DNA of 64,000 bases from Acidithiobacillus ferridurans (GCF_003966655.1 NZ_AP018795.1:682001-746000), one strand, 5' to 3'; counted from the first letter of the stretch, positions 10,185 to 58,700 are shown. Notes: a model not told the origin generated them from the letters alone. A program made the numbers and translations.

Positions 10185-11268
10185 CCATATGCTGCAGGAG
10201 ATCGGCTTGATATTCCTTGATCAGCGGTTCAATCACGGCATCGAGATCACCCTCCAGCACCGCTTCCAGCCGGTACAGCGTGAGATTGATGCGGTGATCG
10301 GTGATCCGCCCCTGGGGGAAATTGTAGGTGCGGATGCGTTCGGAGCGATCTCCGGAACCCACCAGCAGACGTCGGGTCTGCGCCGCCGCACTCTGCTGCT
10401 TCTCCTGCTCCTGTTCCAGCAGACGGGCCTGCAGCAGCGCCATGGCCCGCGCCCGGTTCTTGTGCTGGGAGCGGTCTTCCTGGCAGGCCACCACCAGACC
10501 GGAGGGGATATGGGTGATGCGGATGGCGGAGTCGGTTTTATTGATGTGCTGCCCCCCCGCGCCACTGGCACGGTAGGTATCAATGCGCAGGTCGGCGGGA
10601 TTGATGGTGATCTCGCTCACCGTATCCACCTCGGGCAGTACCGCCACCGTACAGGCGGAGGTATGGATGCGGCCCTGCGTCTCGGTCTCGGGCACCCGTT
10701 GCACCCGATGTCCGCCCGATTCGAATTTCAGGCAGGAGTAAGCACCACGTCCACTGATTTCCAGCACGACCTCCTTGTAGCCGCCCCGTTCCGATTCGGA
10801 GGCGGAAAGGATGACCACCGCAAAGCCCTTACTCTCGGCATAACGGGTATACATCCGGGCCAACACTCCCGCGAAGAGCGCGGCCTCCTCACCACCGGTC
10901 CCTGCCCGCACCTCCAAAAAGACACTACGATCATCATTGGGGTCTTTGGGCAATAGGCGTACCCGCAGGGCTGCTTCGATCTGGTCGAGCTCTGCCTCGG
11001 CCGCCGCAACCTCTTCGATGGCCAGCGCACGCAGTTCCGCATCCTGTTCTTCCATCAGCATACGCCCGCCCTCGTCCCGATCCCTCTGCCGCTGCTGATA
11101 CCGGCGGAGCAGTTCCAGGACCGGGCCGATCTCGCCCAGCTCTTTGGAGAGGCTCTGAAAACGCTGGGTATCGTCAGCCGCACCAGGACTCGCCAGCAAC
11201 TGACTCAATTCATCAAAACGAAAGGCCAACTGCTCAAGCTGGCTCTGCAACCGCGGACTGAGACTCAT
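10171..11268 (-). CDS. prfA: Peptide chain release factor 1
   Basis: Class I release factor recognising UAA and UAG. The 365-residue product contains the GGQ loop ([17 protein letters not shown]) and the flanking [11 protein letters not shown]. The start at [10 protein letters not shown] gives the family length and a 4-base overlap with the hemA stop; an in-frame extension of 24 Arg/Ser-rich codons upstream lies inside hemA and is not family-like. The hemA-prfA-prmC order is common in gammaproteobacteria. Confidence 0.97.
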
Positions 11269-12527
11269 CCTTCGGCGTCGCTGAGACGAAAGAGAATATC
11301 CAGTGCCGCGACCAGACTTTCGTTGGTCGCGTCCTGACAAGGCTGGCGAAGGGTCGCGATGGGATCGTGAAGTACTTTATTCATCAAGGCCTTGGAGAAG
11401 GCCTCCAGAACCGCACGAGGGTCCTGCCCCTGATCCAGGTAATGGCTAAAACGCCGTAGCTCCTCCTGGCGCCGTCCCTCCACATGATCACGCAGACGAC
11501 GGATGGCGGGCACCACGTCCAGACTCTCCCGCCATTGCTGAAACTCGCCGACCTCATCGGCAATGATCAGCTCCGCCGCCGACGCCGCCTCGCGGCGGGC
11601 GCGCACGCCCGCCTGGGCGATATCGTTCAGATCGTCCAGCGTATAGAGAAAACACTGCGCAACACCTTCCACCTCCGGGGCGATATCCCGGGGTACGGCA
11701 AGATCCACCAGCATCAGATCACCCCGCGCCCGCTGTGCCATGACTGCAGAGATCGTTTCCCGCGTCACTATGGGCAGCAGGCTCGCGGTGCAACTGACCA
11801 CCACGTCGGCATCGTGCAACAGATGGGGGATAGCCTCCAGCGCATGGGAGTCGCCGGTAAATTTTTCGGCGAGTTGCTGACCGCGTTCCGCACTGCGGTT
11901 GGCTACGGCGAATCTCTCCACCCCATGCTCACGCAGATGGGTCGCCACCAGTTCGATGGTATCCCCGGCGCCGATCAGCAGCACCGATTTGCCTTCGAGG
12001 CTGCCCAGCAACTGCTTGGCCAAACATACGGCCGCATAGGCGACACTGACCGGGGCCGAACCAATGGCGGTCTCCGAGCGCACCCGCTTTGCCACACGGA
12101 AGGCCCAGTGCAGCAGGCGATTCAATACCGGCCCGGCGGCACCACTATCCGCCGCCGCCTGATAGGCATCCTTGACCTGACCGAGAATCTGCGGTTCTCC
12201 GATGATCATGGAATCCAGCCCGCAGGACACCCGAAACAGATGGCGCACGGCTTCCGCATCGCTCGAATGGTAGATATGCCCATCCAGCAATCGCGGGTCC
12301 ACGCCGTGAAAATGGCAGAGCCAGTCCTGCAGGGCCTGACGATGGTAGCCAGCACCGCCGTGAACATAGATTTCCGTGCGGTTGCAGGTGGATATGATCA
12401 GCGACTCGGCAGCCAAGCCCTGCTCCGCCAGGTCGTGATAGGCTGCAGCAAGCCTCTCCGGCGAAAAAGCGACTTTTTCCCGGACCGCGATGGGGGCAGT
12501 ATGGTGACTCAGTCCGAAGCAGAAAAT
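11265..12527 (-). CDS. hemA: Glutamyl-tRNA reductase (start codon uncertain)
   Basis: First committed step of the C5 heme pathway: NADPH-dependent reduction of Glu-tRNA to glutamate-1-semialdehyde. The sequence has [13 protein letters not shown] near the N-terminus, the active-site cysteine in [31 protein letters not shown], and a nucleotide-binding stretch [11 protein letters not shown]. The coordinate given uses an ATT codon, because the residues aligned with the family methionine are encoded GTC-ACC-ACC-ATT; a TTG at base 12596 is the nearest conventional in-frame start, adding 23 residues. First gene of the prfA-prmC-mutM operon, divergent from the TPR gene. Confidence 0.92.
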
Positions 12528-27086: not shown

Positions 27087-29282
27087 ATGTTTCGCGAACA
27101 TAACAGGCACCCGCTACCTGCCGCCATTTGGGATCGCTCATGGAAGGGTGCCTTCCGGCGGCGTTTCATGCGCCCCATAGGCAAGCCCAAGGCGGGAACA
27201 GTGCCAAAGGTGCCTTGGGAGCGCTTGCTCCGCCATCGCCGGCGCAGCACTCTGGCCCTGACCGTGGCGACCGTGGCGGCGATACTCCTGCTGGTGGACA
27301 ACATCCTGCGAGACCAGGCGCTGGCGCCAGTTTGGCAGATGGCATACCTCTCCCTCTACGGGGTCATGTCCTTCTTCATGATCCAGAGTTTCTACAAGAT
27401 CCTGATCGGCACTTGGCACGTTTCCCGGGGCATCGCCGGCAACCCCTACCACCCTTTGCGGGAACGGCGAGATCCGCCGGGAGGGGAGACGATGGCCCTA
27501 CTGTTTCCTGTGTACCAGGAGGACGTGGCTCGGGTCCTGGCCGGACTCGTGGCCACCTGGGACGCCATACGCGCCTATCGTCCGGATCTTGCGCCTCGCG
27601 CCCATACGTTCCTTCTATCGGACAGCCGGCGCCCGGCCATGGTCGCCCATGAGGCAATGGCGGTGCAGCGGCTCAAGCGGGAACGTCCGGACCTGCCGCT
27701 TTTCTACCGGCACCGGTCTATCAACGCCAACCAGAAGATGGGCAACCTGTCGGACTTCTTCCGGCGCTACGGACGGCATTATGCCTATACGCTCGTCATG
27801 GATGCCGACTCGATCATGGACGGGGAGGCCTGCATCGAGATGTGGCGAGCCATGGCCGCTCATCACCGCATCGGGATTCTGCAGACCAATCCCCGTCCGG
27901 TATTCAGGGAGAGCTTCTTTGGACGCATGTTGCAATTCGCCGCCCATCTTTATGGCTCGGTATTTTCTTATTCACTGATGGTGATGCAAATGGGCCATGC
28001 GGGTTATATCGGCCACAACGCCTTAATCCGGACACAGGCATTCATGGACCACTGCGTCCTGCCGAAGCTCCCCGGGCCAAAGCCCTGGGGCGGCAAACCA
28101 TTAAGCCATGACTTCGTCGAGGCAGCCATGATGTGCCGGGCGGGTTACGAGGTGTGGTTCGTCCCCGAGTTGACAGGCTCGTACGAGGAAGTGCCCGCAA
28201 ACATAATCGCATTTCTCGTCAGAGAACGGCGCTGGATGCAGGGAAACCTCCAGCATCTGCGGCTGCTGTTCCTCAATGGCATACGAGGGATGCACAGGGA
28301 AATCTTCATCAACGGGGCCATGGGGTATGTCACTGCCCCCATATGGTTCGTTTTTCTGCTGGTATCCGCATACACCATGGTGCATTTTTTGAGTGCCGCC
28401 AACCTGTCCGTTGGGTCCGTTCAGATGCTGATGGTTCCCATGGGCCTACTGCTGGCGGCAAGCATGGTGTTCCTATTCCTCCCCCGCATCCTGGCCATCC
28501 TGACGCATATGAGGTCGCACAAAGCCCCTATGTATGGCGGGCGCATCAAGCTGATATGGTCGGTGCTTGCCGATACAGTACTTTCGTTTTTTTATGCGCC
28601 GCTCATGATGATAATGGTCAGCTATTTTCTCTGGGCGTGGGTCAAGCGTCGGACCGTTTCATGGGGGCAGCAGCAACGGGATGACCGTGCCGTTGCATGG
28701 AAAGATGCATGGAAATCCTTTCGCGGTGTAATGGTCCTGGGGATCGCAGGATGGGCGGCCTTGCTGGCCCTGGTGCATGGGGCCATCCAGTCCCTGCACG
28801 CCATGCTGCTGGAGTCCATAACATACGGTTGGATACAGCCCGGCAGCATGCTGATGTGGTATGCACCGATCCTGGCCGGCTGGGCCCTTAGCGTTTTCTT
28901 AGTGCAATGGACCAGCCGAACCTTTCCTACGATCAATCGCATTCGCTGGTTCGCCATCCCTGAGGAGTTGAATCCCCCCAAGGTGCTGCAGGAGGTTCGT
29001 ACCCTGGAGCAGCAGTTCCGCTCATGGTGGGAGATCCCGGATACGGACGACCCAAAGGAGTATCTGCCGGTGTTCGTGCGCATCTGCAAGGCGCAGCAAG
29101 CGGATCTGGTGGAACTGCCGCATCGCCACACCAAGACCGAACTCTACCGCCGTCTGCATGACAAGGCCATGGCCCAGGGCGGGCTTTCCCAGCGGGAATG
29201 GATCCTGCTGCTGGGAAGCCAGCAGTTTCGGCATTACCTGTGTTCGGATGCCGGGTCGGAATTCCTGGCGGCGTTGCATTGA
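27087..29282 (+). CDS. OpgH/MdoH-like membrane glucosyltransferase (GT2)
   Basis: 731-residue processive glycosyltransferase related to the glucan synthase OpgH. Two membrane helices near residues 50-70 and 80-100, then a cytoplasmic GT-A domain with [18 protein letters not shown], the metal-binding DADS in [12 protein letters not shown], the acceptor motif [10 protein letters not shown] and the RxxRW motif [12 protein letters not shown] (about residue 385); several C-terminal helices follow (about 410-620). Usual OpgH is about 850 residues; the N-terminal cytoplasmic region is shorter here. No opgG is next to it; instead it is paired with Wza/KpsE-like exporters, so its product may be exported rather than periplasmic (inference). 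Confidence 0.85.
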
Positions 29283-29337
29283 CCGCTCCGTACACCCCTG
29301 CTTCCGTCATCACTCGCTGCAATTTACAGGAGGAAAT

Positions 29338-30216
29338 GTGGATCGTATTCGCAAGGCGGTATTCCCCGTAGCCGGGCTAGGGACCCGGTTTTTGCCCGCC
29401 ACCAAGGCCAGCCCCAAGGAAATGCTGCCGGTGGTCGACAAGCCGCTGATCCAATATGCCGTCGAGGAGGCTGTTGCGGCCGGCTGCGATCAGTTGATCT
29501 TCATTACTGGGCGGAGCAAGCGAGCCATCGCCGACCATTTCGACGTCTCCTACGAGCTGGAAAAGGAGCTTGAGAAGAAGAGCAAGACAGAATTGCTCGA
29601 GCAGGTCCGGGCCATTCTGCCTAGACACGTCAAGGCCATCCACCTGCGCCAGCCCCATCCACTAGGCCTGGGCCATGCGGTAGCGATGGCCGCCCCGGTG
29701 GTGGGCGACGAGCCTTTTGCCGTGCTCCTCGCTGATGACCTGATGCTTGCCGACAGGCCGGTCCTCGCCCAGATGATGGATCTGCACCAGCGCTATCAGT
29801 CCGGCATCCTGGGCGTTGAGGAGATTCCCAGGGAGCACAGTACCCGCTATGGGGTCGTCGAAGTCCGTCCCTGGGATGAATGCGTTTATCAGGTCGAAGG
29901 CATCGTCGAAAAGCCCAGCCCTGAAGCAGCCCCATCAAATCTCGGCGTCGTAGGCCGCTACATCCTGCCTGCGCGCATCTTCCACTTTTTGGAAAACGCG
30001 CAAATGGGCGCCGGCCAGGAAATCCAGCTGACGGATGCCATCGCTGAGCTGCTTGGCGAACGGCAGATGCTCGCTTATCGCTTTGCCGGCCAGCGCTTCG
30101 ACTGTGGTGACAAGCTGGGCTATCTCCAGGCGACGCTGACTCTCGCCCGGCGACACCCGGAAGTCGGCCCGGACTTCGAGGAGTATCTACGCGACCTTTG
30201 CGGTCAGTTCCGGTAA
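29338..30216 (+). CDS. galU: UTP-glucose-1-phosphate uridylyltransferase
   Basis: Makes UDP-glucose, the donor for the neighbouring glucosyltransferase and for NdvB. The 292-residue enzyme has the nucleotide-binding signature [20 protein letters not shown], the lysine motif [19 protein letters not shown], and GLGHAV and LADDL catalytic stretches. Start is GTG with AGGAGG four bases upstream; upstream codons in the frame belong to the transferase gene in another frame. Together with the upstream genes it forms one apparent operon. Confidence 0.94.
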
Positions 30217-31014: not shown

Positions 31015-31141
31015 ACGAACTTCAGCGGATGGCGAGCATTTCGTTCGCTTGGACATCAATCAGTCCGCCATGATCAAGAAGCTATTGCTGATCACCAGTA
31101 ACCCGCGACTCGATGAGTGGTTTGCTGCTGCATCCAGGTAA
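30998..31141 (+). pseudogene. Possible truncated gene start after the GNAT gene
   Basis: 47-residue frame with AAGG six bases upstream, overlapping the GNAT tail by 17 bases; reads FVRLDINQSAMIKKLLLITS then NPRLDEWFAAASR before a TAA. It looks like the beginning of a protein cut off where the DUF262 fragment begins. No family can be named. Confidence 0.35.
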
Positions 31142-31146
31142 TTCCA

Positions 31147-31428
31147 GGGAGAGGAAATAAGTTCAAGCAAAAAGGCCAGATCGAGAGCGCCCAAATTGTC
31201 ATTGGCGAAGTGTTTTCACGCTTCTGGTTCCGCATCCTGGATTACCAGCGGGCCTACGTCTGGGGCAAGGATGAAATTTCCGAGATGATCGATGATGTGA
31301 ATTACGCCAGCGAGCACAACCGGGAAGGGCAGTATTTCCTGGGCTCAATGGTACTGCGCAAGGCAACCCATACCACCGATGGGGTGGGATTTGAGGAGTA
31401 CGAACAGCTGGATGGTCAGCAGCGCTGA
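31147..31428 (+). pseudogene. DUF262 (GmrS-like) restriction protein, N-terminal fragment
   Basis: The frame contains IGEVFSRFWFRILDYQRAYV, then WGKDEISEMIDDVNYASEH and GQYFLGSMVLRK, ending LDGQQR followed by TGA. DUF262/GmrSD proteins begin with exactly this P-Q-Y-RxYxW and DGQQRLTTL pattern and normally run 500-700 residues. Here translation ends right after the DGQQR nucleotide-binding motif and the sequence beyond is unrelated, so it is a 3'-deleted remnant. No start codon with a ribosome site is obvious at its 5' end. Confidence 0.75.
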
Positions 31429-31854: not shown

Positions 31855-32043
31855 ATGCCTAAAATCTCATCAATAGAGCACAGGGCCTCAAATAAGATAC
31901 GCGGAATGCTGCGCCTTGGGCTGCGTGCAATGGTTGCTTGTGGCACAGCAATCCTAATCAGCGGCTGCTTGCCGTTGATGGCGGCAAGTGCTGCAGGTAG
32001 TGTGGCCTACTATAACATGCCGCATTCTGCCAAGGGCCAATAG
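31855..32043 (+). CDS. Small lipoprotein
   Basis: 62 residues; basic N-region, hydrophobic stretch MVACGTAILISGC with a lipobox LISGC (Cys about residue 38), then a short Ala/Ser-rich tail. AAGGA precedes the ATG by seven bases. First of a run of small envelope proteins. Confidence 0.6.
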   Translation: MPKISSIEHRASNKIRGMLRLGLRAMVACGTAILISGCLPLMAASAAGSVAYYNMPHSAKGQ

Positions 32044-32426
32044 CGCAACAGACGGTCTATCGGGCTGAACATTAACATGGCTGTTGGCTGCATAACCCGC
32101 CTACATAACATGCATGGCCAGCTTACTACATGACGTTATTGTTGCGATACCCTATTGCCAGCATAAAGGAGCCAAATTGTCATGGAATCAAGCCGGTCGT
32201 TCTCATCCCCTGATGATTCTGCAGACTGGCACAACGGCGACAACACAAGCCCTACCAAATCAGCGAGATGAGATGGAGCAACGTACAAATGTAGTCAACT
32301 GACTACAGCAGAGATGTGCCGATCAGGGTTAATACCCACTGGAAGCCCGTAAAGAGCCAGAAGTCCTGCCGGGAATGTTTTTTGCTTGTGTACTTTTGGC
32401 CTTGGATTTTCGATGGGAGCATTGCC
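32044..32426. other. Intergenic, nothing recognised
   Basis: 383 bases between two small envelope genes. A 62-codon plus frame at 32114 lacks a ribosome-binding site or domain. Probably promoter and untranslated DNA for the following gene. Confidence 0.35.
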
Positions 32427-32738
32427 ATGAAGCCGTTCCTCCATGCTTCACAGGTGCGACGAAAACCGATGCTATTGGCGGTTGCCGTTATTCTCGTGCT
32501 TTCGCCAGTTGCTGGAATCACCTCGGCGCTTGCCGATAACCTTTCCCTGGGTTTGGCAATTCCAGGGCTCAGTGTTTCATTGGGAGGGGCACCTGTTTAT
32601 TATCCTGTTCCCCCAGCGGCTTATGTTCCACCCCCACAACCCGTGTATTACTATGCAGCCCCGCCACCGCCGCCGGGATTTCCGCCCGTCTACTACGCGG
32701 TTCCCACGCCTGTGGCGGGCTATGTATCCGCTCCCTGA
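32427..32738 (+). CDS. Secreted Pro/Tyr-rich protein
   Basis: 103 residues. Signal peptide (PMLLAVAVILVLSPVAGIT, cleavage near ALA-D), a short hydrophobic region, and a tail dominated by PPPxYYxxP repeats such as APVYYPVPPAAYVPPP and PVYYYAAPPPPP. The start is the ATG with GGGAG eight bases upstream; 37 upstream in-frame codons lack a signal-like sequence. Function unknown; Tyr/Pro-rich tails occur in cell-surface proteins that cross-link or bind minerals. Confidence 0.65.
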   Translation: MKPFLHASQVRRKPMLLAVAVILVLSPVAGITSALADNLSLGLAIPGLSVSLGGAPVYYPVPPAAYVPPPQPVYYYAAPPPPPGFPPVYYAVPTPVAGYVSAP

Positions 32739-32768
32739 TAGTGACGCCGGATTTCGTAGGAAGACAGA

Positions 32769-33194
32769 ATGCAAGGGATACAGTATTTTTGGCTAATTGC
32801 GGTCACTTTACTATTGAACGGCTGTGCCTCAACCATGGTCGCTCCGTCCCCGATACCGGCACAGACATCCATTACCCATCAGCCAATGCCATCATTGTCC
32901 CAACCTCCCACCTCGGTCTTGCCACTTCCCACGGGTCCGATCCAGAAACCCTTGGGATTACAGCGCGATTGCCAGCGGTACCAGGTGCAGGCTCATCGAT
33001 TGCAACAAAAACTGACAAAACGGCCACACTCTGGTCTTTTGATGGATGACTTTGACCAAATCCAGGCGGTAGTGAAACCGCTATGCGCTGCACCAGGTTC
33101 TGGAACGCCATATCCTGTTGCCCAACAAGAAATTCGCCGGGCAATGCGGGACGTGGAACAGCTATCCAGATCCGCTTCTTCATCCACACCCTAA
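32769..33194 (+). CDS. Hypothetical lipoprotein
   Basis: 141 residues with lipobox LLNGC (Cys about 19), a Pro/Ser/Thr-rich linker of about 45 residues and a C-terminal helical part with three further cysteines. No family recognised. It lies 30 bases after the Pro/Tyr-rich gene and 14 bases before the glycine-zipper gene, so the three probably form one transcript ending at the terminator at 33480. Confidence 0.6.
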   Translation: MQGIQYFWLIAVTLLLNGCASTMVAPSPIPAQTSITHQPMPSLSQPPTSVLPLPTGPIQKPLGLQRDCQRYQVQAHRLQQKLTKRPHSGLLMDDFDQIQAVVKPLCAAPGSGTPYPVAQQEIRRAMRDVEQLSRSASSSTP

Positions 33195-33208
33195 GGAGAA
33201 ATATCCGC

Positions 33209-33457
33209 ATGTTATCCACGTTCAATTTTAAATATGGCCAGCATAAGTACCGGACAAAGGCCCTGCTGATTGGTATTGGCCTGATCGCTTTGGGCGGTTG
33301 TGCCAATATGAGCCCCACCGGGCAACGCGCACTGAGTGGGGGTGCCATTGGTGCTGCTGGCGGTGCGGTGCTCGGTGCCGTCGCTGGCGGCAGTCCGGCA
33401 GTAGGAGCCGCTGTAGGTGGTGCGGCGGGAGCGGCGACGGGTGCTTTGATGCACTGA
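33209..33457 (+). CDS. Glycine-zipper lipoprotein
   Basis: 82 residues. Signal KALLIGIGLIALGGC with lipobox (Cys about residue 31), then the glycine-zipper motif: ALSGGAIGAAGGAVLGAVAG and AVGAAVGGAAGAATGA, as in the SlyB/YMGG-like outer-membrane lipoproteins. Such helices pack in or across membranes. AAGGAG lies nine bases before the ATG. Confidence 0.75.
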   Translation: MLSTFNFKYGQHKYRTKALLIGIGLIALGGCANMSPTGQRALSGGAIGAAGGAVLGAVAGGSPAVGAAVGGAAGAATGALMH

Positions 33458-33479
33458 AAGCACCCTTCAATGATGTGGA

Positions 33480-33517
33480 ACACGCCCCATTTTCAGCAAC
33501 AAATGGGGCGTGTTTTT
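33480..33517 (+). terminator. Strong intrinsic terminator
   Basis: Perfect 11-bp stem ACACGCCCCAT/ATGGGGCGTGT with a 12-base loop, followed by a T-run. Ends the 32427-33457 transcript; the reverse orientation lacks a comparable T-run. Confidence 0.85.
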
Positions 33518-33578
33518 GCGTAACCAGTTCACAGCAGAGCGATTGGCCTGTAGCTTTTGAACCCTCTTGCGGAACCTC

Positions 33579-33827
33579 TCATGGAGGGGGCGGTGGTGGG
33601 GGCGGACCGGGTTGCTGGTAATAACCACCGGGACCCGCTGGCCCTCCAGGCGGCGGTGGGGGTGGCGGCGGTGGTGCGGGTTGCGCATAATAACCGCCAG
33701 GTCCCGGAGGTGGGCCAGGGGGGTAGGCATAACATCCTGCCAACGCCGCCAAAACACCCAAGGCCGCGATACGTAATGCGTGATGCCACACTTTACGGCC
33801 TGTCAGGTACTGAATTTCATGCAACAT
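33579..33827 (-). CDS. Poly-proline lipoprotein
   Basis: About 82 residues. Signal HALRIAALGVLAALAGC with lipobox LAGC, then YAYPPGPPPGPGGYYAQP and two runs of seven to nine consecutive prolines separated by GGPAGPGGYYQQP. AGGAG six bases before the ATG decides the start. The unbroken prolines should require EF-P for translation. The complementary (plus) strand has G-runs with quadruplex potential. Transcribed toward the 33480 terminator region. Confidence 0.65.
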   Translation of the reverse strand: MLHEIQYLTGRKVWHHALRIAALGVLAALAGCYAYPPGPPPGPGGYYAQPAPPPPPPPPPGGPAGPGGYYQQPGPPPPPPPP

Positions 33828-33878
33828 GAGGTTCTCCTTTAAGGGGATCACTTAATCTTCATCGCCTGAATAAGTGAA

Positions 33879-34175
33879 TCACGGATTTCGGTACAGCAAG
33901 TGGTCATACCTCCTTTCCGCTTTGCGGTCCTGTTTTTCCGACTTGCGCAGCGCCTTCCAGTAACGATGATCGGCTTTGCGATCCCGTTTGACCAGTCGCC
34001 GCTGACTTAAAGCATAGACGGCACCTGTAGTGGTTCCAATATCAAAAGAAATACAATGGGTTCGTTTTGCCTTGTCGGAATCCGATGAGATGATGCCATG
34101 ATAGGTTGTCGCCAAAGCGCAACAGACGCGCTTGAGAACTGGCCTGCTAGCACCGAGATCCCGTGAAACCCGCAA
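33879..34175 (-). CDS. Hypothetical basic protein with internal repeat
   Basis: Up to 98 residues; the start is uncertain. The C-terminal third carries a duplicated motif: KRDRKADHRYWKAL and KQDRKAERRYDHLL. No family recognised and no ribosome-binding site at the first methionine. It may be co-transcribed with the poly-proline lipoprotein 51 bases downstream. The gap up to 34400 has no other gene. Confidence 0.4.
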   Translation of the reverse strand: MRVSRDLGASRPVLKRVCCALATTYHGIISSDSDKAKRTHCISFDIGTTTGAVYALSQRRLVKRDRKADHRYWKALRKSEKQDRKAERRYDHLLYRNP

Positions 34176-34328
34176 AGCGATTTCATGAACGGACGGAGCA
34201 GGACACTGATTTCATCCAGAAATTCAGCCTGCCGGAACCTTTGGCATAAATTCTGCTGTCTAAAGCTCTGGGCTTGTCAGTGAGATTTCTCATGCTTTCT
34301 GTCATAACCCGAATGGCGGTCTGATTGC

Positions 34329-34355
34329 ACGGTATGACTTTAAAAGGCATACCGT
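34329..34355. promoter_or_regulatory. Inverted repeat upstream of barrel gene
   Basis: Perfect 8-bp arms ACGGTATG and CATACCGT around an 11-base spacer, 45 bases upstream of the beta-barrel ATG. Could be an operator or a 5' UTR hairpin; not a typical terminator because no T-run follows. Confidence 0.45.
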
Positions 34356-34400
34356 CAAACTCAGTCTATTTTTTAAACTAAACAAGGCAGGAGTATTCCG

Positions 34401-35072
34401 ATGATTCAGAAAAAAATATGGTTAACCGCGTTGACTCTCGCAATCACTTTACCGATAGGTGCCGAAGCATCTGTATATGGCGTCATGAATCAAGTCGGTG
34501 TTTCCGGCAATGTGCAAGGGGCTACCAATCAGTATGGCAATACCACCGGCGGACTGGGTCTGCGTGCCAGCCTTTACAATGGTGGATTGTTTGGTACAGC
34601 TAAGTACCGCCACGAGTTCGGGGCCACCTATCAGGGATATACCGGGGGCAATACCAATACGGTTGGACTCAAATTCGGCTATCTCTTCCATGCCAGCAAC
34701 ATCCTGGCTGTCGGACCTTATGTGGGGTACGAGTATAACCGTTTTGCACAGTCCAACAGCTATTATGACTACCACTCCTCGCTGAGCACCAATGATCTGG
34801 GTGGGGGTCTATATGCAGCAACTGCATTGCCGGGTATCAATTTTACCGGATACATCGGGTACCTTGGTGGTATCTCTGAAACCCAGCATGTTTCTGGATT
34901 TGCACCGGATACTTTCAACAGCACATCGGACCTACTGCAAATGGGAGTAAACGCATATTATCCGTTGATGGCAAACGTATCCCTCTATGTCGGATTGCAC
35001 GATGATGACTTTACGCAGCGAGGCGCTCCCAACATACTTCGGGGGGATGTGGGCTTAGGTATGCAATTTTAA
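34401..35072 (+). CDS. Outer-membrane beta-barrel protein
   Basis: 223 residues. Signal peptide (WLTALTLAITLPIGAEASVY), then about eight predicted strands with alternating aromatics (AKYRHEFGATYQGY, AVGPYVGYEYNRFAQ, GVNAYYPLMANVSLYVG) and the C-terminal beta-signal GDVGLGMQF ending in phenylalanine. Small-barrel size suggests an 8-stranded OmpA/OmpW-type fold; function unknown. AGGAG is seven bases upstream of the ATG. It sits in the middle of the Pro/Tyr-rich envelope cluster. Confidence 0.75.
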   Translation: MIQKKIWLTALTLAITLPIGAEASVYGVMNQVGVSGNVQGATNQYGNTTGGLGLRASLYNGGLFGTAKYRHEFGATYQGYTGGNTNTVGLKFGYLFHASNILAVGPYVGYEYNRFAQSNSYYDYHSSLSTNDLGGGLYAATALPGINFTGYIGYLGGISETQHVSGFAPDTFNSTSDLLQMGVNAYYPLMANVSLYVGLHDDDFTQRGAPNILRGDVGLGMQF

Positions 35073-35107
35073 GTATCCGCTGACGACATCATCAAATTCA
35101 TACGTGA

Positions 35108-35140
35108 CACTCAGGGTGGGCTCCACTCTGAGTGTGTTTC
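35108..35140 (+). terminator. Terminator after barrel gene
   Basis: 12-bp stem CACTCAGGGTGG/CCACTCTGAGTG with one G-T pair and a 3-base loop, followed by TGTTTC. The T-run is short, so termination may be partial. Confidence 0.65.
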
Positions 35141-35323
35141 AGCCGCACGGCAAGGGACCAATGAGGGTTCTTGTCAGCGCCTACCGAAAAGTAGTGGCAG
35201 AACCTGGCTGGAACCTGTTACAGAAGGCGACTAGACTAAAAGCATATTCTCCCAATCAGGGAAGGGTTAATCGCTTTTCTGTTGCCGATGTTGATGATGA
35301 AGGGCCACGTAAAGGAGAATGCC

Positions 35324-35527
35324 ATGCAGATTAAAACTACTACAAAACTCCTTCTGTTTGCCTTGGGTGCCATGATTTTATTCGGGCGTATGATGTTTCC
35401 TCACAGGGGATATGGCCATTCTGGTTATTATTCCCAGGGGGGCCAGCAAGCATATGGTTATCAGGGCAACCGCCCGCCACCACCGGCCTATGGGTCGGAT
35501 CCTGGTAATTACGGGTATGGCAATTAA
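35324..35527 (+). CDS. Small secreted Gly/Tyr/Pro-rich protein
   Basis: 67 residues: an N-terminal membrane/signal segment (KLLLFALGAMILFG) and a tail of GYGHSGYYSQGGQQAYGYQ followed by RPPPPAYGSD and GNYGYGN. AAAGGAG seven bases before the ATG sets the start. Low-complexity Tyr/Gly composition resembles structural or adhesive proteins. 62 bases before the next member of the cluster. Confidence 0.6.
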   Translation: MQIKTTTKLLLFALGAMILFGRMMFPHRGYGHSGYYSQGGQQAYGYQGNRPPPPAYGSDPGNYGYGN

Positions 35528-35589
35528 CCGCCAGGGTCATAAAACGGATCCGCGGCCCTGTAGTATACTAAATAACCAAGGAGGTTAAA

Positions 35590-36405
35590 ATGTCTCGTAA
35601 AGCTATTTTACTCCGCATCTCTCTCGCGCTTGCGGGAGCGGGTTTGTTGTCCAGTTTTGTACCGGCTACGGCCTTTCCCTTTGATATCAGCGTATTGTTG
35701 GGAGATATGGGTATCAACATCGGTAATGCTGGATGGCCCCAGCAGTATGCTTACTGGCAGCCGCCCTATGGGTACACCAGTTATTACAGCCAACCGCTCT
35801 ATGCACAATACATGATGTGGTACTACTATCCGCAATCTTATTATCAGTATTATCCAGCGCCTCCGCCGCCTCTACCTGCGGGTGCGCCTCCGCCTCCGCC
35901 ACCGCCTCCAGGCGCACCACCACTGCCACCGCCGGGAAATTTTTTCCATTACCTGGGCATGCGGCAGCCACCTCCGCCCCCGCCCGGAGCGAGGCTAACC
36001 CGTCCACCGGGTCCACCAGGAGCCAATCGATTTTATCCTGGTGGGCCTGGATTCAGCCCGCAACATGGACCGCAAACCGGTAGGCCAGGACCCATAGGGC
36101 CGCAGTTCCAGCATGGACCGGCGGGAGGGCCACCGCAGGGGCCACAATATCGTCCGGGAGGACGGCCACAAGAGGGGGGGCTAGGAAGGCCGGGAGGTCC
36201 GGGACCTCAACCAGGCAGACCAGGATTTGGCCCACAACTAGGACTACAACCCGGTAGGCCAGGACCCGGGGGTCCGCAGTTCCAGCATGGACCGGCAGGA
36301 GGGCCACCGCAGGGTGGCCCAGGCAGACTCGGAGGTCCGGATCCCCAACAGCGTCCACAAGGCCCTATGGGTGGACCGCCACGTGGAGGTCCAGGCGTTC
36401 CTTAA
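35590..36405 (+). CDS. Secreted Pro/Gly-rich protein with tandem repeats
   Basis: 271 residues. Signal peptide ends near PATAFP; residues 45-95 are Tyr/Gln-rich (PQQYAYWQPPYGYTSYYSQP), then a poly-proline stretch, then about 140 residues of collagen-like GRPGPxGPQ sequence (QFQHGPAGGPPQG occurs twice). GGAGG is six bases before the ATG. A hairpin CGAGCCGC/GCGGCTCG at 36422-36446 follows. No family; likely extracytoplasmic and disordered. Confidence 0.65.
   Translation: MSRKAILLRISLALAGAGLLSSFVPATAFPFDISVLLGDMGINIGNAGWPQQYAYWQPPYGYTSYYSQPLYAQYMMWYYYPQSYYQYYPAPPPPLPAGAPPPPPPPPGAPPLPPPGNFFHYLGMRQPPPPPPGARLTRPPGPPGANRFYPGGPGFSPQHGPQTGRPGPIGPQFQHGPAGGPPQGPQYRPGGRPQEGGLGRPGGPGPQPGRPGFGPQLGLQPGRPGPGGPQFQHGPAGGPPQGGPGRLGGPDPQQRPQGPMGGPPRGGPGVP
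36077..36140 (+). repeat. 64-base direct repeat, copy 1
   Basis: Matches 36251-36314 with about six differences, 174 bases apart, within the Pro/Gly-rich gene; encodes GRPGP.GPQFQHGPAGGPPQ. Shows recent internal duplication. Confidence 0.85.
36251..36314 (+). repeat. 64-base direct repeat, copy 2
   Basis: Second copy of the repeat at 36077-36140; begins CCGGTAGGCCAGGACCC and ends GGGCCACCGCAGGG. Confidence 0.85.
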
Positions 36406-36421
36406 AATGCGTAAAACGAAA

Positions 36422-36446
36422 CGAGCCGCTTATATGGGGCGGCTCG
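36422..36446 (+). terminator. Hairpin after the Pro/Gly-rich gene
   Basis: Perfect 8-bp GC-rich stem (CGAGCCGC/GCGGCTCG) 16 bases after the stop; followed by CTCTTGGG rather than a T-run, so a stabilising 3' hairpin or weak terminator. Confidence 0.5.
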
Positions 36447-36548
36447 CTCTTGGGTCTTTGCGGAACGTCTTTGCGTCTATGCTATGGCTCTGAGCGATTC
36501 AGTGAAGAGCTTTACTTTGCGGGTGGAAAGAATTTTTCCGCCCGGAGT

Positions 36549-36827
36549 ATGGCCGCCGTCAACGACTGCATTGCCGGGAAGATTGGCAAGCGTTTTGACC
36601 TGGATATGACGGTCCGGGAACCCAGTGGAGAGGGGTTTCGTGCACAGATGGAGCGATTACTGCCGCAAACACAACATGACAAGGTGTTTGGTAAGGCTGG
36701 GTATGAGAAATATTTCGAGAATACTGTCAGTGGATTGCTATACAGTCTGCAGAAGGAGCTGGAATTTGATGCTCAAAAAATCCCGCGGGTGCCGTTAGGG
36801 AAGAAAAAATGTGGTCCGGAGTTGTGA
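36549..36827 (+). CDS. Hypothetical protein, start uncertain
   Basis: About 92 residues from the ATG of AAVNDCIAGKIGKRFDLDMT; the frame is open from 36450 (TTG). Charged, soluble, with KAGYEKYFENTVSGLLYSLQ near the end; no domain recognised. It may be the C-terminal remnant of a larger gene. No close ribosome-binding site. Confidence 0.4.
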   Translation: MAAVNDCIAGKIGKRFDLDMTVREPSGEGFRAQMERLLPQTQHDKVFGKAGYEKYFENTVSGLLYSLQKELEFDAQKIPRVPLGKKKCGPEL

Positions 36828-36930: not shown

Positions 36931-37310
36931 GTGCGCAAGATCGTGGCAACCGTTGGTTTTGCTATCCTCGCCTTGCCTACCTGCGCGGCGGCGCACGGCG
37001 TAAACCCCATCCCGCGCGCGCAGATCCGCCTCACTACGACAGCTGGCTACCGTGTGCCTGACACCGAACTGCGCGCCAGCCTTTCGGCGCGGCCCAGCGG
37101 ATCCGGTCCTCGACGCTTGCCGCCCATGTCAACCGGACGGTGGCATGGGCGGACGCACGGGTTTCGTCGGTACACCGTTTGCAACGGCACGCCGACGGAT
37201 ATGCGGCCGTGCGCACGGAGAACAAAACGGCCCCATGACCCGATAAGGCTGTACCACGATCACCCGATCTATACCTCCCAATCGAAGATTAACTGCGCTG
37301 GAGAGTACGA
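36931..37310 (+). other. Undetermined: signal-peptide-like start with conflicting frames
   Basis: A GTG-initiated frame begins RKIVATVGFAILALPTCAAA, a convincing signal peptide, but continues as Arg/Pro-rich unlikely sequence; a second frame between about 37070 and 37225 reads TLAAHVNRTVAWADARVSSV, which looks more natural. A frameshift within a small exported or plasmid-derived gene is plausible. No function can be given. Confidence 0.3.
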
Positions 37311-37948
37311 TGCCCGTCCCCGCCCCACTCCATTCCGGGAACAACACCGAAAAGAAAGATCCCCGTCTTGAGCTTGCCGATAGGCTGATTGAACAGATCG
37401 AGGCAGGAACCGCCTCCTGGCAAAGGCCCTGGGAAGCCGGCGATGTGTTGGCCCCGGTCAATGCAGTCACAGGCAAGCCTTACAGCGGGGTGAACTACCA
37501 AAATCTCATGATGTTCTCTCCGGATACGTCCGATCCACGTTGGTGTACCTACAAGCAGGCCCAGGAGCAGGGCTGGCAGGTGCGCAAGGGTGAGCATGGG
37601 ATCCCCATCGAAAAGTGGTCGCGTTACGAGCACAAGCGCACGGAAGAGGAAATGGGCAGACTCCGGGAACAGGGAGCAGCGGACCCTGAGCCCACAGAAA
37701 TGCGTCTTGGCGTGCGCTACTACAAGGTGTTTCACGCCTCACAGATCGACGGCATCCCGCCGCTGGAGAGGTCCCCACGTCCCGAGATCCAGGGAACTCC
37801 CGATGATCGCCTGCGGAAGCTGGCCGGGCGTTTTATCGTCCGTCGGAAGACCGGGTGCAGATGCCTCTCGTGGAATCTTTCGAGCAGGCTGTGGGTCAGG
37901 ACACTACCCTCCTGCACGAAGTCTGGAAGTAGTTCTATTCGTGGTTGA
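37310..37948 (+). pseudogene. ardC: ArdC-type antirestriction protein, N-terminal domain only
   Basis: The first ~150 residues match the ssDNA-binding N-terminal domain of ArdC-like plasmid antirestriction proteins: ELADRLIEQIEAGTASWQRP, WEAGDVLAPVNAVTGKPYSG, DPRWCTYKQAQEQGWQVRKG and the closing YYKVFHASQIDGIPPL. Full proteins are about 300 residues with a zincin metallopeptidase domain (HExxH); here the tail after residue ~165 is unrelated and no HExxH occurs. It marks former plasmid or ICE DNA. Confidence 0.75.
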
Positions 37949-52705: not shown

Positions 52706-55700
52706 TTAGTCGAGGTAGACATCGACATCGTGCTCGCGGCGGTCATCCATGAGCGGAATCCTGTCTTGCGGCAATTCAGCACCATCCAGGGTAATGCGCA
52801 CTACCCGCGTTGATGCGGTGCTATCACCATGAACGGTGATATGGTACAGCGTATCGCGGTAGCGGTAGTGGACCTTATAGAATTTCCAGTCCGCCGGGAC
52901 GCGGGGCGTGATGCGCAGGTGATCAACCTCAAGCGATAGGCCCAGCAAGGTTTCGATCGTTAATCTATACATCCAGCCCGCTGCGCCGGTGTACCAGGTC
53001 CACCCACCGCGCCCGACGTGTGGTGCGGCGCCATAAATATCGGCGCACATAACGTAGGGTTCTACCTTATAGCGGGCGATAGATTCTGCGCTACTTCCAT
53101 GACGGACTGGATTGAGCATGTTAAACAACTCCCAGGCCCGTACTTTGTCTCCCATTTGGGCAAAAGCCATGGCGGTCCAAATGGCAGCGTGGGTATATTG
53201 TCCGCCGTTTTCGCGCACACCAGGTACATAGCCCTTGATGTAACCGGGTTCGAGTGCTGACCGGTCAAAGGGTGGATTGAGTAACTGGATAAGCTGCGCA
53301 TCGCGACGGACCAGATATTTGTCCACCGCTGCCATGGCCTGTCGCGCCCGCAAGGGATCGCCTGCGCTAGAGAGGATGGACCAACTCTGGCTGATGGAAT
53401 CAATTTGGCATTCGTCATTCGTAGCAGAACCAAGGGGCGTACCATCATCAAAATAAGCCCGCCGATACCAGGCACCGTCCCAGGCATTTTTTTCTATGTT
53501 CTCCTGTAACACGACAGCCTGTTGCACACAAAGATCAACAATGGTGCTGTCACCCCGGATGCGCGCGAGACCAGCAAACTGCTGTAGATTCTGAATCAGG
53601 AACCAAGCCAGCCAGACGCTCTCACCCCGACCCTCGTGACCGACCAGATTCATCCCGTCATTCCAGTCGCCACTGCCCATCAGAGGTAAGCCATGGACAC
53701 CCAATCGCAAACCGTTTTTGAGCGCCCGAACGCAATGATCATAGAGGCTGGCGGATTCAGCAGAGCGCTGGGGTTGATCGTAGTAGGACTCTTCCTCGGA
53801 ATTCAGTTCGCGGCCTTCGAGAAAATGAATGGGTTCGTCAAGAATGCCAGTATCGCCGGTAGCCATCACAAAGCGACAGGTGGCATAGGGTAACCAGAGA
53901 TAGTCATCGGAAATATGGGTGCGCACCCCTTGGCCGTGGGGCGGGTGCCACCAGTGCTGGACATCCCCTTGACAGAATTGGCGCTCTGCACAACGGATCA
54001 GTTGTTCTCGGGCCAGCCCGGGGGTCGTGTGGATCAGCGCCATGCTATCTTGTAGTTGATCACGAAAACCGTAGGCCCCGCCCGACTGGTAGTAGCCGCT
54101 GCGGCCCCAGAGTCTGCTGGAGATGGTTTGGTAGACCAGCCAGCCGTTCGCTAATACGTTCAGTGCAGGATCCGGGGTTTCCACATATATCGTACCTAAG
54201 GTCCGGCTCCAGTATTCCCGTACCCCGGCCAAAGCTTGCCGCGCATACTCTCTATTGGCGAAGCGGTCTGTATATTGCTGCGCTTCGTCGGTGCTGGCTG
54301 CGGTACCAAAAACAAACACGATTTCGCGCTCCGCGCCTTCAGCCAGATGAATCGGCGTTTGTATGGCGGCGCAGGGATCAAAGCCCGCCCCTGTTTTATC
54401 GGACAGACGGCTGCGGTACAGTGCCGCAGCTTTGGCAAGCGTACCGTTACGGCCGATAAACTCGCTGCGATTGCCGGTGATCGTACGCTCCCGTTCACTG
54501 GTCTGAACGAAAACGACCCGATGTCCGCACTCGCGCCCATAGTCATTGTGGGCATACAGCGCACCGTTGTGCGGATCACTTTCGGTGACGATATGCATCA
54601 TATTGGCATGACGCCACTCGCCGAGTACCAGTTCCCAGTATGCCGTCAGCGAAAGCCTTCGCGGGCGCTTGGAATGGTTGTGCAGTTTGACCACTACGAA
54701 TTTCACTGGCGCGTCCATCGCGACGTAAGTGGTCATTTCTGAAGAGATCCCCGACTCATAATGTTCAAAAATAGTGTATCCAAATCCGTGGCGGCACACA
54801 TATCCGGACTGACCGCGGGCGGGCAATGGAGAGGGTGACCAAAATGCTCCTGTGTCTTCGTCGCGGATATACAGAGCCTCGCCACTACTGTCACTGAGCG
54901 GATCGTTGTGCCATGTGGTCAGACGGAATTCATGGGCGTTTTCGACCCAGGTATAGGCACCGCCGCTCTCGCTGATGACAGTGCCGATGTGCGGACTGGC
55001 AATCACATTGGCCCAAGGAGCGGGTGTAATTTGGCCCGGCTCCAAACTGATGACGTATTCACGTCCATCGGCTGTGAATCCACCCAGCCCGTTGAAAAAA
55101 ATGCGTTCCCGCGGCAGCAGCGGTTGTATGATTTCGACGGCTGGGGGTGACTGCGGATTCAGCGGAGCAGGAAAGCGATCCCCTGATACCCGCCGTTCCA
55201 CCTGCTCTAGTAGGGAGTCGGCGCTGTCGGTGAGGATAATACGCGCGACGGTCTGGAACAGCACGCGATCCTCTTCAGAAAGTTCTTCGGCGCGGCGTAA
55301 GAAGACGCCACCGGGTTTGTCGACGATTTGTGCTTCCGGACCTGCGTGAATCAAGCCCATTATCTGATCTTGCAGCGTGGCCCGGTAGCTGGTGAAATCT
55401 TCGTTGACGATCACCAGATCGGTCGCTAGTCCTTTCAGTCGCCAATATGCATGGGCCTGCAGTATTTGTTTTACCAGATTGATACGGTTTAATTGACGGA
55501 CGCGCAGCAGCACAATCGGTAAATCGCCTGATATCCCAAAGCGCCACAGGCCGGATTGCCCTAACTGATTACGGGCAATTACACTGGGCGCGGCCCGCCG
55601 CAGGGCACTGGCGTACACCACGGAATTGGCCAGGCGTCCAAACACCTGGGCATCGGCTTCGCTGGCGCTCAGATGGCGGAGCACTTCCTGGCCCTGGAAC

Positions 55701-58700
55701 CAGGCCATTTCAAAAGCACGTTCCACCAGGTGACGGTCACCATACTTCTCCAGCAGGGCAATAGCGGCCTCACGCGTGTCGGCCATTCCGGAAATGATCT
55801 GTACCGTCGCGGACTCGTCTACGCCAAGCGTCAGTGTACGACGGATGGCCACAATGGGGTCTAATACAGGCCCCTCGCTATTTGATAATGTAGCCTGTTG
55901 TAGGCTGTCGAAGACGCGCGGATGCTCGGCGGTACGACCACGGCCTATGAACTGTGCGCGATCAGTTTCGTAAGATGCTGCACTGGCGGCAACACCGGGC
56001 GCAGCAAATAGATGAAACATCCAAGGCACTTGCTCGTCCGGTGAGCGACGACGTCGGGTACAGAGAATCGCATTGTGCTTTGACAGAATTTCGGTCTGAA
56101 CGAATAAATTGCTGAATGCACGGTGAGCAAGGTCGGCATTTAACGGAGCGAGGACAATCTCAGTATAACTTGTTAACTCTATCTGACGAATGCGTGGGGA
56201 GATATTGGTGAGCGTCACACGGCGGATCTCCACGTTGTCTTCCGGCGCAACGCTGACCTCCATATAGCTCTCTATCATTTGATCACGGCGACGGTATTCC
56301 GCCCGTGCTTGGACGAAAATCGCCTCATAGTGATCGGCTTTGCTTCGGGTGGGTTGATGGGTCGTCGACCAAAAGTGTCCGGACTGACGGTCACGCAGGT
56401 AAATGAAGGTCCCCCAGACATCTGCGGCGGTATCCTCGCGCCAGCGGTTCACGGCGAGACCGTCAAGATGGCTGTAACCGCTGCCAGCGTGGTTGATCAT
56501 GACGTGATAGCGGCCATTCGATAAAAGGTGGACTTCTGGCATGGACGTATCCGGATTGCTGTATACGCGCATTATTGTCGTAATTTCGACGCTGGACACG
56601 TTTGCGGCAGCGCTGACTTCAGCTGCATGGGGATGAAACGTAGCCTCCTGCCTGGGCAGACGCTCTTGCAACAATAACTGAGTGGCCTGAATGCCGGGAT
56701 CAGATAAAAACCGGCGCTGCATTGGCTGATTGAGAAGGACATGGGCAAAAGCCAGGAGACTCATCCCTTGATGATGCGCCATAAAGGTTCGGACAATGGC
56801 ATGACGCTCGCCCGGTGGCACCCGGGATGGCGTGTAATCGATGGCTTCGTAAAAGCCATAGGCGCCGAGAAACCCCTGCGCCGCAAGATTCTGCAAGTTG
56901 TGGCAGGCCTCCCACGGCATCACAGTTAGTGCCAGCGCGCTGGCATAAGGTGCAATCACCAAATCATCGCCGAGCCCGCGTTTGAAACCAAGACCGGGAA
57001 CCCCAAATGCCCGGTATTGATAGACTTGATGCATGTCCACGGCGTTGAAACAGGATTCCGATATTCCCCAAGGTACGGTGCGTTGGCGCCCATATTCTAT
57101 TTGGCGAGAGACGGCCGCTTTGCAGGTCTGGTAGAGCAGTGTGTTGGGGAAATCCGGCATGATCAATTGCGGCATGAGATACTCAAACATCGAGCCGCTC
57201 CATGAAATCAAGCACAGTTCGCCGCCGTAGCTCGTCAACAGGCGCCCCAACGAAAACCAATGTTTCTGAGGCGCTTGTCCTTGTGCAATAAGCAGAAAAC
57301 TGGCCAGGCGTGCTTCTGATGCCAGCAGGTCGTAGCAGGATGGATCACGGCGCCGTTCCCCGACATCATAGCCAATGGCCAGCAGGTCGCGCGCAGGGTC
57401 GTAAAGAAATTCAAAATCCATCGCCGCCAACGCGCGGCAGCGATCCACCAACTGATCAATGACCCTTAACCGTTCTGCGGCAGCTGCCCGGGCGGCAGCC
57501 GTCCCCGTGGCAATGCCATGGGCTAATTCAGCCAGTGTCAGAGTGTTGTTCACGTCCCGCGCATCAGGGACGAGGGTTTCCAGATCCAGCGCCAAAGCCT
57601 GACATTGTTGATAAAATGCCTTTGCCCAGTAAGCACAGTCGCTATCCGCCGGAACATCGGCGGGAAACCCGTTCACGAGATCGCCGCTGATCCTTTGAAT
57701 ATCGGCAAGCTGGTGATGGGCATCCACCAGGGATGGGGGGCATCCGTTGAGCGTCATGGCAGACAACACATCTTGCAGTGCAAGGACTTTGTTGGCCAGA
57801 TCTGTCGTGGGGATGTCGTGGATGCATGTTGCCAACAGATACAGCGTATCCTGCAGGCCCGCAAAGGCGTTGTCCGGCAACACCGGATGAGTTTTGAGCG
57901 CGTTCAACCCTGCTTGGAGGGTGAGCAGGCAGCCGCCGAGATTACCGCTATCCACCGCTGAGATATATTGCGGACTCAGTATTTGCAGGGTGCGCGTGTC
58001 ATACCAGTTATAGAAGTGACCGTGATAGCGTTCCAGTTGCTCCATGGTTGTCACGGTGTTTTCGGTCAATTGGAGGAACTCGCCGGCAGTAATATAACCA
58101 AAATCATAGGCAGCCAGACTGGCCAGCAGCGACATGCCCATGTTGGTCGGTGAGGTTCGCGAGGCAATGACCGTCGTTGGATACTCCTGAAAATTATCGG
58201 GGGGTAACCAGTGCTCCGCAGGGCCGACAAAGTCATCAAAAAAACGCCAGGTACGTCGTGCCGATAGCCGCAGAAAGCGTCGCTGTATATCATCCAGACC
58301 TGTGACACCGGTCCGCAACGGCCGGCTGATCCACCATGCGATAACCGGTGAAAACAGCCACAGCCCTAAAATGGGCATGCTGAACAGTAACACCGAGGGT
58401 GAACTGGTCCCCAGGCTGGAGGCGGTCACCAAGGCTATTCCGAGGAGGATGGCGAGCAGGGGTGCACTCCAGATCTCCCTGAAAAAATCTCCGGGGGTAT
58501 GACAGGCGTTACGGCTGCGGTACGAAGGCAGTTGCCAAAGCAACAATCCCCGACGGGTGAAAAGCATTCGTATGCCTGAGCGCAGAATGGCATCCAGGCT
58601 CATCACTGCGTCATAAGGCAGCAGTGCGACTGTCAGCAGTGCGGAGAATAGCGGGCGACTTGCCGAAGCCCTGGTCAAGGAGAGATGTGCTGCCCAGTCG

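Follow-up and report, generated by a model that had tools for sequence, protein, structure and literature searches.

Omp40, Slp, and licanantase are known surface proteins of Acidithiobacillus (PMC8886135, PMC4137666). We analyzed a 64,000-nucleotide stretch of the Acidithiobacillus ferridurans chromosome (GCF_003966655.1, NZ_AP018795.1:682001-746000; hereafter the window), in which positions 31855-36405 hold eight intact small genes, here called a to h, as judged by its open reading frames (ORFs), together with m, a ninth exported gene of which a remnant is left. Like the three known proteins, the products of this gene set are exported and belong to the envelope of these organisms; they differ in that, apart from d, they have no matching Pfam or NCBIfam family. 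The gene set was not mentioned in the literature we searched on proline-rich, tyrosine-rich, and glycine-zipper proteins in Acidithiobacillus. It appears undescribed in that literature, although f in its fold and d in its glycine zipper are of known kinds. In our judgment, at somewhat less than an even chance, this is a laterally mobile, conserved Acidithiobacillaceae cluster for an outer-membrane or cell-surface protein layer, acting as a coat or adhesive.

The closest described relatives of gene f (34401..35072, + strand; 223 amino acids (aa), with a signal peptide and C-terminal Phe) are omptins such as OmpT and the adhesin OpcA, which are 10-stranded outer-membrane barrels. AlphaFold2 modeled f with the same number of strands (predicted local distance difference test score (pLDDT) 80.9), and Foldseek placed omptins and OpcA as the nearest solved folds (E 6e-7 to 2e-5, template modeling score (TM) ~0.6, 10-15% identity), with omptins at the top (E 6e-7). 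On this model, f is a 10-stranded outer-membrane barrel with an omptin/OpcA-like fold, which bears out an earlier sequence-only reading of the window that had named a 223-residue barrel. Nevertheless, f differs from omptins and OpcA in its low sequence identity and much shorter loops, and it lacks a match to the Pfam Omptin profile. For f, that profile returned nothing even at E 1; among 17 distant homologues it matched two, with a best E of 0.057. The Pfam profile PF13505 (OMP_b-brl) did not match f itself but matched five of 17 family members, the best at 6.7e-9, and the barrel profile gave nothing useful when run against PDB sequences.

FapF, a 12-stranded secretion pore with a family of its own, was among the weaker fold matches of f (TM ~0.47). 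The Fap functional amyloid system resembles the window set in having an outer-membrane barrel beside exported low-complexity proteins. However, none of the eight window proteins matched the Fap models in Pfam or NCBIfam, and the Fap locus of Fervidacidithiobacillus caldus (Acaty_c0525-0529) is separate from the window-type cluster. One study reports the Fap system in F. caldus vesicles (PMC10853474).

The remaining comparison concerns Gly-zipper_YMGG/OsmB-type small lipoproteins, which gene d (33209..33457, +; 82 aa, lipobox ALGGC) resembles in both profile and lipobox. Its score of 30.9 bits passed the gathering cut-off of 28.9 for Pfam PF13441, and fell far below the cut-off for NCBIfam OsmB (15.2 bits against 98). 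This likeness is limited to one of nine genes. Pfam and NCBIfam held no matching family for a, b, c, e, f, g, h, or m, leaving the glycine zipper of d as the sole match to a known family, as had been claimed. Among curated Pro/Tyr models, the b family had nothing above the cut-off in Pfam, the h family nothing in NCBIfam, and the window copy of h nothing in Pfam.

Gene content and conservation of the cluster

All ORFs claimed by the sequence-only reading exist, with one correction to their classification: four are lipobox lipoproteins, where a single small lipoprotein had been proposed. Lipoboxes were identified by eye, in the sequence itself and in alignment, as the pattern [LVI][ASTVIG][GAS]C following a hydrophobic stretch. 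The lipoproteins are d and three others: a (31855..32043, +; 62 aa, lipobox LISGC, start codon tentative), with conserved GCLPLMAASAAGSVxYYNMPHS; c (32769..33194, +; 141 aa, lipobox LLNGC), with a conserved two-Cys C-terminal domain; and e (33579..33827, -; 82 aa), a Pro/Gly/Tyr protein in which the lipobox ALAGC is followed by YAYPPGPPPGPGGYY and then poly-Pro. The same pattern is present in g of relatives (LSGC) and absent from the GYY-rich window g (35324..35527, +; 67 aa), which reads LFGR at this site; the lipobox Cys, replaced by Arg, has been lost from the window copy.

Sec-type signal peptides were assigned by inspection to b, f, and h. Gene b (32427..32738, +; 103 aa) encodes a PPxYY protein with the mature N-terminal motif DNLSLGLAIPGLSVSLGG (32535..32588, +), and h (35590..36405, +; 271 aa) encodes a Tyr/Pro/Gly protein preceded by an AGGAGG ribosome site at 35580-35585. 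Between e and f lies the remnant of m (~33879..34005, -), which retains a conserved basic C-terminal region of ~41 aa (KRDRKADHRYWKALRKSEKQDRKAERRYDHLLYRNP); the signal peptide and N-terminal half are gone from the window and present in relatives only. Intact, exported homologues of 110-130 aa occur at loci L037, L038, L039, L084-L088, and L090, the carriers including A. montserratensis, A. concretivorus, F. caldus, and a third genus of Acidithiobacillaceae. As read from these sequences, all products bear export signals or bore them until recently, and their exit from the cytoplasm is well supported by the signals. Charge is low in b, h, and intact m. Composition also marks the interval: when the 257 ATG ORFs of at least 60 aa in the window are ranked by their content of Pro, Tyr, and Gly, four of the top five lie in these 4.5 kb (hypergeometric P ~1e-4, post hoc).

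Conservation of the gene set extends to A. thiooxidans-type species, F. caldus, and the third genus. Since it is kept in relatives spanning three genera, the objection that no relative conserves it fails. Loci were found in A. montserratensis (two), A. concretivorus (two), A. sulfurivorans, Acidithiobacillus sp. HP-2 (two), the KUB metagenome-assembled genome (MAG), YTS05, and STE_117. Thiooxidans-type species have the type 1 arrangement a-b-c-d-e(-)-m(-)-f; type 2 is e-m-f(-g)-h; A. concretivorus has f-g-h; and the order m-e/f-h occurs in F. caldus ATCC 51756, the g180 genomes, and genomes of the third genus. Orthologues of a were found at the thiooxidans-clade, F. caldus, and YTS05 loci. In the F. 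caldus genome G201, which we take to be ATCC 51756, a, d, e, m, f, h, and b all lie inside 7.3 kb, and the neighbors include envelope genes, one for an SLT transglycosylase and one for a VTT/DedA protein.

Close orthologues of f (E <1e-100) were present in 13 of 29 family genomes, distributed over three genera; vertically diverged versions of f are ~65-70% identical. Among 184 other genomes of the class the barrel profile found no match, nor did the b profile among 142; hence, no relatives were seen outside the family at these thresholds. The cluster is also absent from A. ferrooxidans ATCC 23270 (G006), which has only a 37%-identical barrel without the partner genes. Specialization to sulfur alone was considered and was not supported: among the 29 genomes, f occurred in 2 of 8 with the iron-oxidation marker rusticyanin and in 11 of 21 lacking it (Fisher p 0.24).

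All eight genes are under purifying selection, judging by ratios of nonsynonymous to synonymous substitution rates (dN/dS) against relatives, and the barrel is the most constrained. The ratio was 0.03-0.06 for f, 0.10-0.14 for h, 0.13-0.15 for b, 0.14 for d, 0.11-0.26 for g, 0.16-0.28 for e, 0.34-0.37 for c, and 0.33-0.40 for a.

The Tyr/Pro protein h and its links to other genes

Alignment of h-type proteins revealed an aromatic core, YYSQPLYAQYxMWYYYPQxYYxYY followed by PPPPxPAGAPPPPPPP, which in the window is YTSYYSQPLYAQYMMWYYYPQSYYQYY (35773..35853, +). This core is nearly invariant among all h-type proteins and is kept across three genera; the family with the YAQYxMWYYYP and poly-Pro core is absent from the curated catalogues (Pfam, NCBIfam). 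Such strong aromatic and poly-Pro constraint implies that the core must do something specific. At the DNA level, the core pattern occurred in 15 of 29 Acidithiobacillaceae genomes, at no more than three loci per genome, and a reversed control pattern gave 0 matches. Stand-alone copies of h occur in A. ferrooxidans and elsewhere in the A. ferridurans genome. The latter includes a second h-type gene (G000:C1:2408057, L115) whose Pro/Gly tail is out of frame after about residue 122, due to a frameshift or assembly error; the reading frame is kept in the A. ferrooxidans copy (L102).

The core (121 aa) carries few charges, with two Asp, no Glu, four Arg, and no Lys. In the AlphaFold2 model, helices at residues 68-79 and 82-87 lie beside the poly-Pro stretch at moderate confidence (pLDDT 70-79), so a packing of helix against polyproline may be envisaged, and the variable Pro/Gly tail is modeled as disordered (pLDDT <50). 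The sequence-only reading had suggested a disordered Tyr/Pro matrix; this description suits the tail but not the aromatic/poly-Pro core, which is invariant across the three genera. Neither Foldseek with the low-confidence model of h nor a PDB search with its core returned a match.

Two observations connect h to the other genes. In genomes G205 and G210, the h core follows a g-like lipoprotein N-terminus with a lipobox (L120, L122), and this fusion links g and h. The likeness of these N-termini to g was reached by 0 of 1000 shuffles in one genome and by 0-101 of 1000 in the other, depending on the g used. In addition, the mature N-termini of b, intact m, and F. caldus-type h have a motif in common, DxLSLxLxxPG. 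Because hhalign comparisons of b, m, and h took in the signal peptides, we set them aside and used a shuffle test on mature N-termini instead. The score was reached by 0-7 of 1000 shuffles for F. caldus h against b and by 0 of 1000 for m_037 against the window copy of b (b_WIN), while intact m against b ranged from 0 to 322 of 1000 by pair.

Lateral transfer and genomic setting

Several comparisons point to movement of the cluster between species. The type 1 locus is 99% identical across species; for example, A. montserratensis and G016 share 99.3% identity in type 1 f, against 85.3% in galU. Copies that are nearly identical although the core genes of their host species have diverged show lateral spread. 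G016, a complete genome of 3.4 Mb with a galU 98.5% identical to that of HP-2, carries two copies of a 3.0-kb b-f block that are 99.93% identical to each other. These lie at distant sites (G016:C1:1004265 and G016:C1:2404895), and their downstream sequences differ after position +709 of f. We excluded the KUB_Bin07 MAG copy from the transfer evidence, as its contig may be contamination.

The A. ferridurans cluster was probably also acquired laterally, with galU as the single comparator gene. Three features underlie this conclusion: synonymous divergence (dS) between window f and the A. montserratensis type 2 copy was 0.57, as opposed to 2.7, near saturation, for core galU; GC content is 0.48-0.57 in the cluster and 0.60-0.65 in most of its flanks; and the cluster is bounded by a GmrSD_N ORF upstream and an ArdC-N ORF downstream. 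The upstream ORF (31117-31428) is a truncated GmrSD_N (DUF262) restriction endonuclease (Pfam E 8e-13) directly adjoining the cluster. The downstream ORF (37310-37948) matches the N-terminal domain of the ArdC anti-restriction protein (E 3e-33), which suggests mobile-element debris. In genomes G006 and G007, both without the cluster, the right-hand neighbors in the window have matches up to 38927 or 38334, and the left-hand genes are located elsewhere in G006.

Three hairpins lie within or next to the cluster. A predicted intrinsic terminator (33482..33517, +) sits between the convergent genes d and e, with an 11-bp stem (hairpin 33482-33511; -17.7 kcal/mol, z -3.3) followed by TTTTT. A terminator-like hairpin with a weak T run follows f (35107..35135, +; -21.7 kcal/mol, z -3.4), and a GC-rich hairpin with a 10-bp stem follows h (36422..36446, +; z -2.6). 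A generic terminator scan of the window called none of the three (33482, 35107, 36422).

Elsewhere in the window, positions 36450-36827 show a weak likeness, below the cut-off, to the AbiEii nucleotidyltransferase toxin and are probably a fragment. A second galU copy at 29158-30216 is 75% identical to the other copy in the genome (G000:C1:1616182), and nothing in the genus matches it more closely. A very long ORF of 2889 aa occupies 52706-61375 (-).

Possible functions of the cluster

We inferred localization from the export signals, the fold of f, and the gene fusion. These parts are consistent with an outer-membrane platform of barrel and lipoproteins bearing almost uncharged exported Tyr/Pro/Gly chains. 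In the mechanism we propose, f would be folded by the β-barrel assembly machinery (BAM) and Lol would place the lipoproteins in the outer membrane. Proteins b, h, and m would then attach to the barrel and lipoprotein layer via the short N-terminal motif, with h also attaching via its aromatic core, and the uncharged Pro/Gly/Tyr tails would extend as an acid-stable coat or adhesive for surface contact. Because it has almost no charged side chains, such a chain would hold the same state at pH 1-3, which would suit the habitat. The proteins may also reach the outer surface, bind f, and come into contact with sulfur or mineral. Export or anchoring of the Tyr/Pro proteins by the barrel, and a benefit in acid, metal-rich, or mineral-contact conditions, both suggested by the sequence-only reading, are conjectural. 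A bolder and rather improbable extension is that h and its relatives are bacterial surface proteins of a new class: a Tyr/Trp-rich helix would pack against poly-proline to form an acid-proof, charge-free aromatic 'glue' on the lipoprotein/barrel platform, coating the cell and wetting hydrophobic elemental sulfur or minerals.

Some results weigh against a surface layer built around f. Genes b, d, and h also occur without it, as a b'-d' pair at G000:C1:1010k and as stand-alone h in A. ferrooxidans, and are thus not dependent on the barrel. The N-terminal motif likeness is weak for several pairs, with 46-130 of 1000 shuffles reaching the score for window h against b. Moreover, m has decayed in the window and g lacks its lipobox, so A. 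ferridurans may be losing part of the set. The b' (PPxYY) and d' (glycine-zipper) genes of the same genome (L097 5304-5982; G000:C1 ~1010300-1010985) lie beside ribosomal-protein and argC genes.

Other roles can be proposed for the same genes. The barrel fold and extreme conservation of f (dN/dS ~0.04) would befit a small-solute channel or pore, with the Pro/Tyr proteins and lipoproteins as periplasmic accessories or spacers and no surface coat. In F. caldus (L088), b (11719-12069) overlaps the stop of a 263-aa exported, predicted barrel-like protein (10931-11722) that has no Pfam match, so b may go with different channels. However, the nearest folds of f are omptins and OpcA, not general porins, and a channel alone explains neither the g-h fusion nor the many stand-alone copies of h; we regard this role as unlikely. 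Similarly unlikely, in our view, is an OsmB- or SlyB-type set for envelope stress or outer-membrane integrity, in which the Pro/Tyr proteins would be periplasmic stabilizers under osmotic or acid stress. Its appeal lies in the Gly-zipper_YMGG and sub-threshold OsmB matches of d, the several tiny lipoproteins, and the b'-d' pair adjoining core genes, but presence in only 13 of 29 family genomes and lateral spread are more in keeping with an accessory surface trait than with a core stress function.

It could also be that the small envelope genes are unrelated, have no function in common, and are simply carried on the same laterally moving DNA as a loose neighborhood. The lower-GC accessory segment between the GmrSD_N and ArdC-N ORFs, the 99% identity of the type 1 locus across species, the variation in gene content among loci (f-g-h versus a-f), and the decay of m and the g lipobox would all be expected from such a neighborhood. 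Yet gene order and content are repeated across three genera, vertically diverged versions included, all genes are under purifying selection, and the g-h fusion points to a functional link, making the absence of a joint function hard to credit. Least probable is that f acts as an omptin-like surface protease on the neighboring exported proteins or the environment. Omptins are its top Foldseek matches, and an H-D-D-D at residues 200-203, near a predicted extracellular strand end, is conserved in close orthologues. This must be set against identity of just 10-15%, the missing Pfam Omptin match, the similar TM of the non-protease OpcA, and loss of the His in distant paralogues.

The contact of acidophilic sulfur oxidizers with insoluble sulfur and minerals is a question with relevance to biomining. 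If the cluster does serve as a coat or adhesive at the cell surface, it would bear on that contact as a defined set of envelope proteins, both conserved and laterally mobile.

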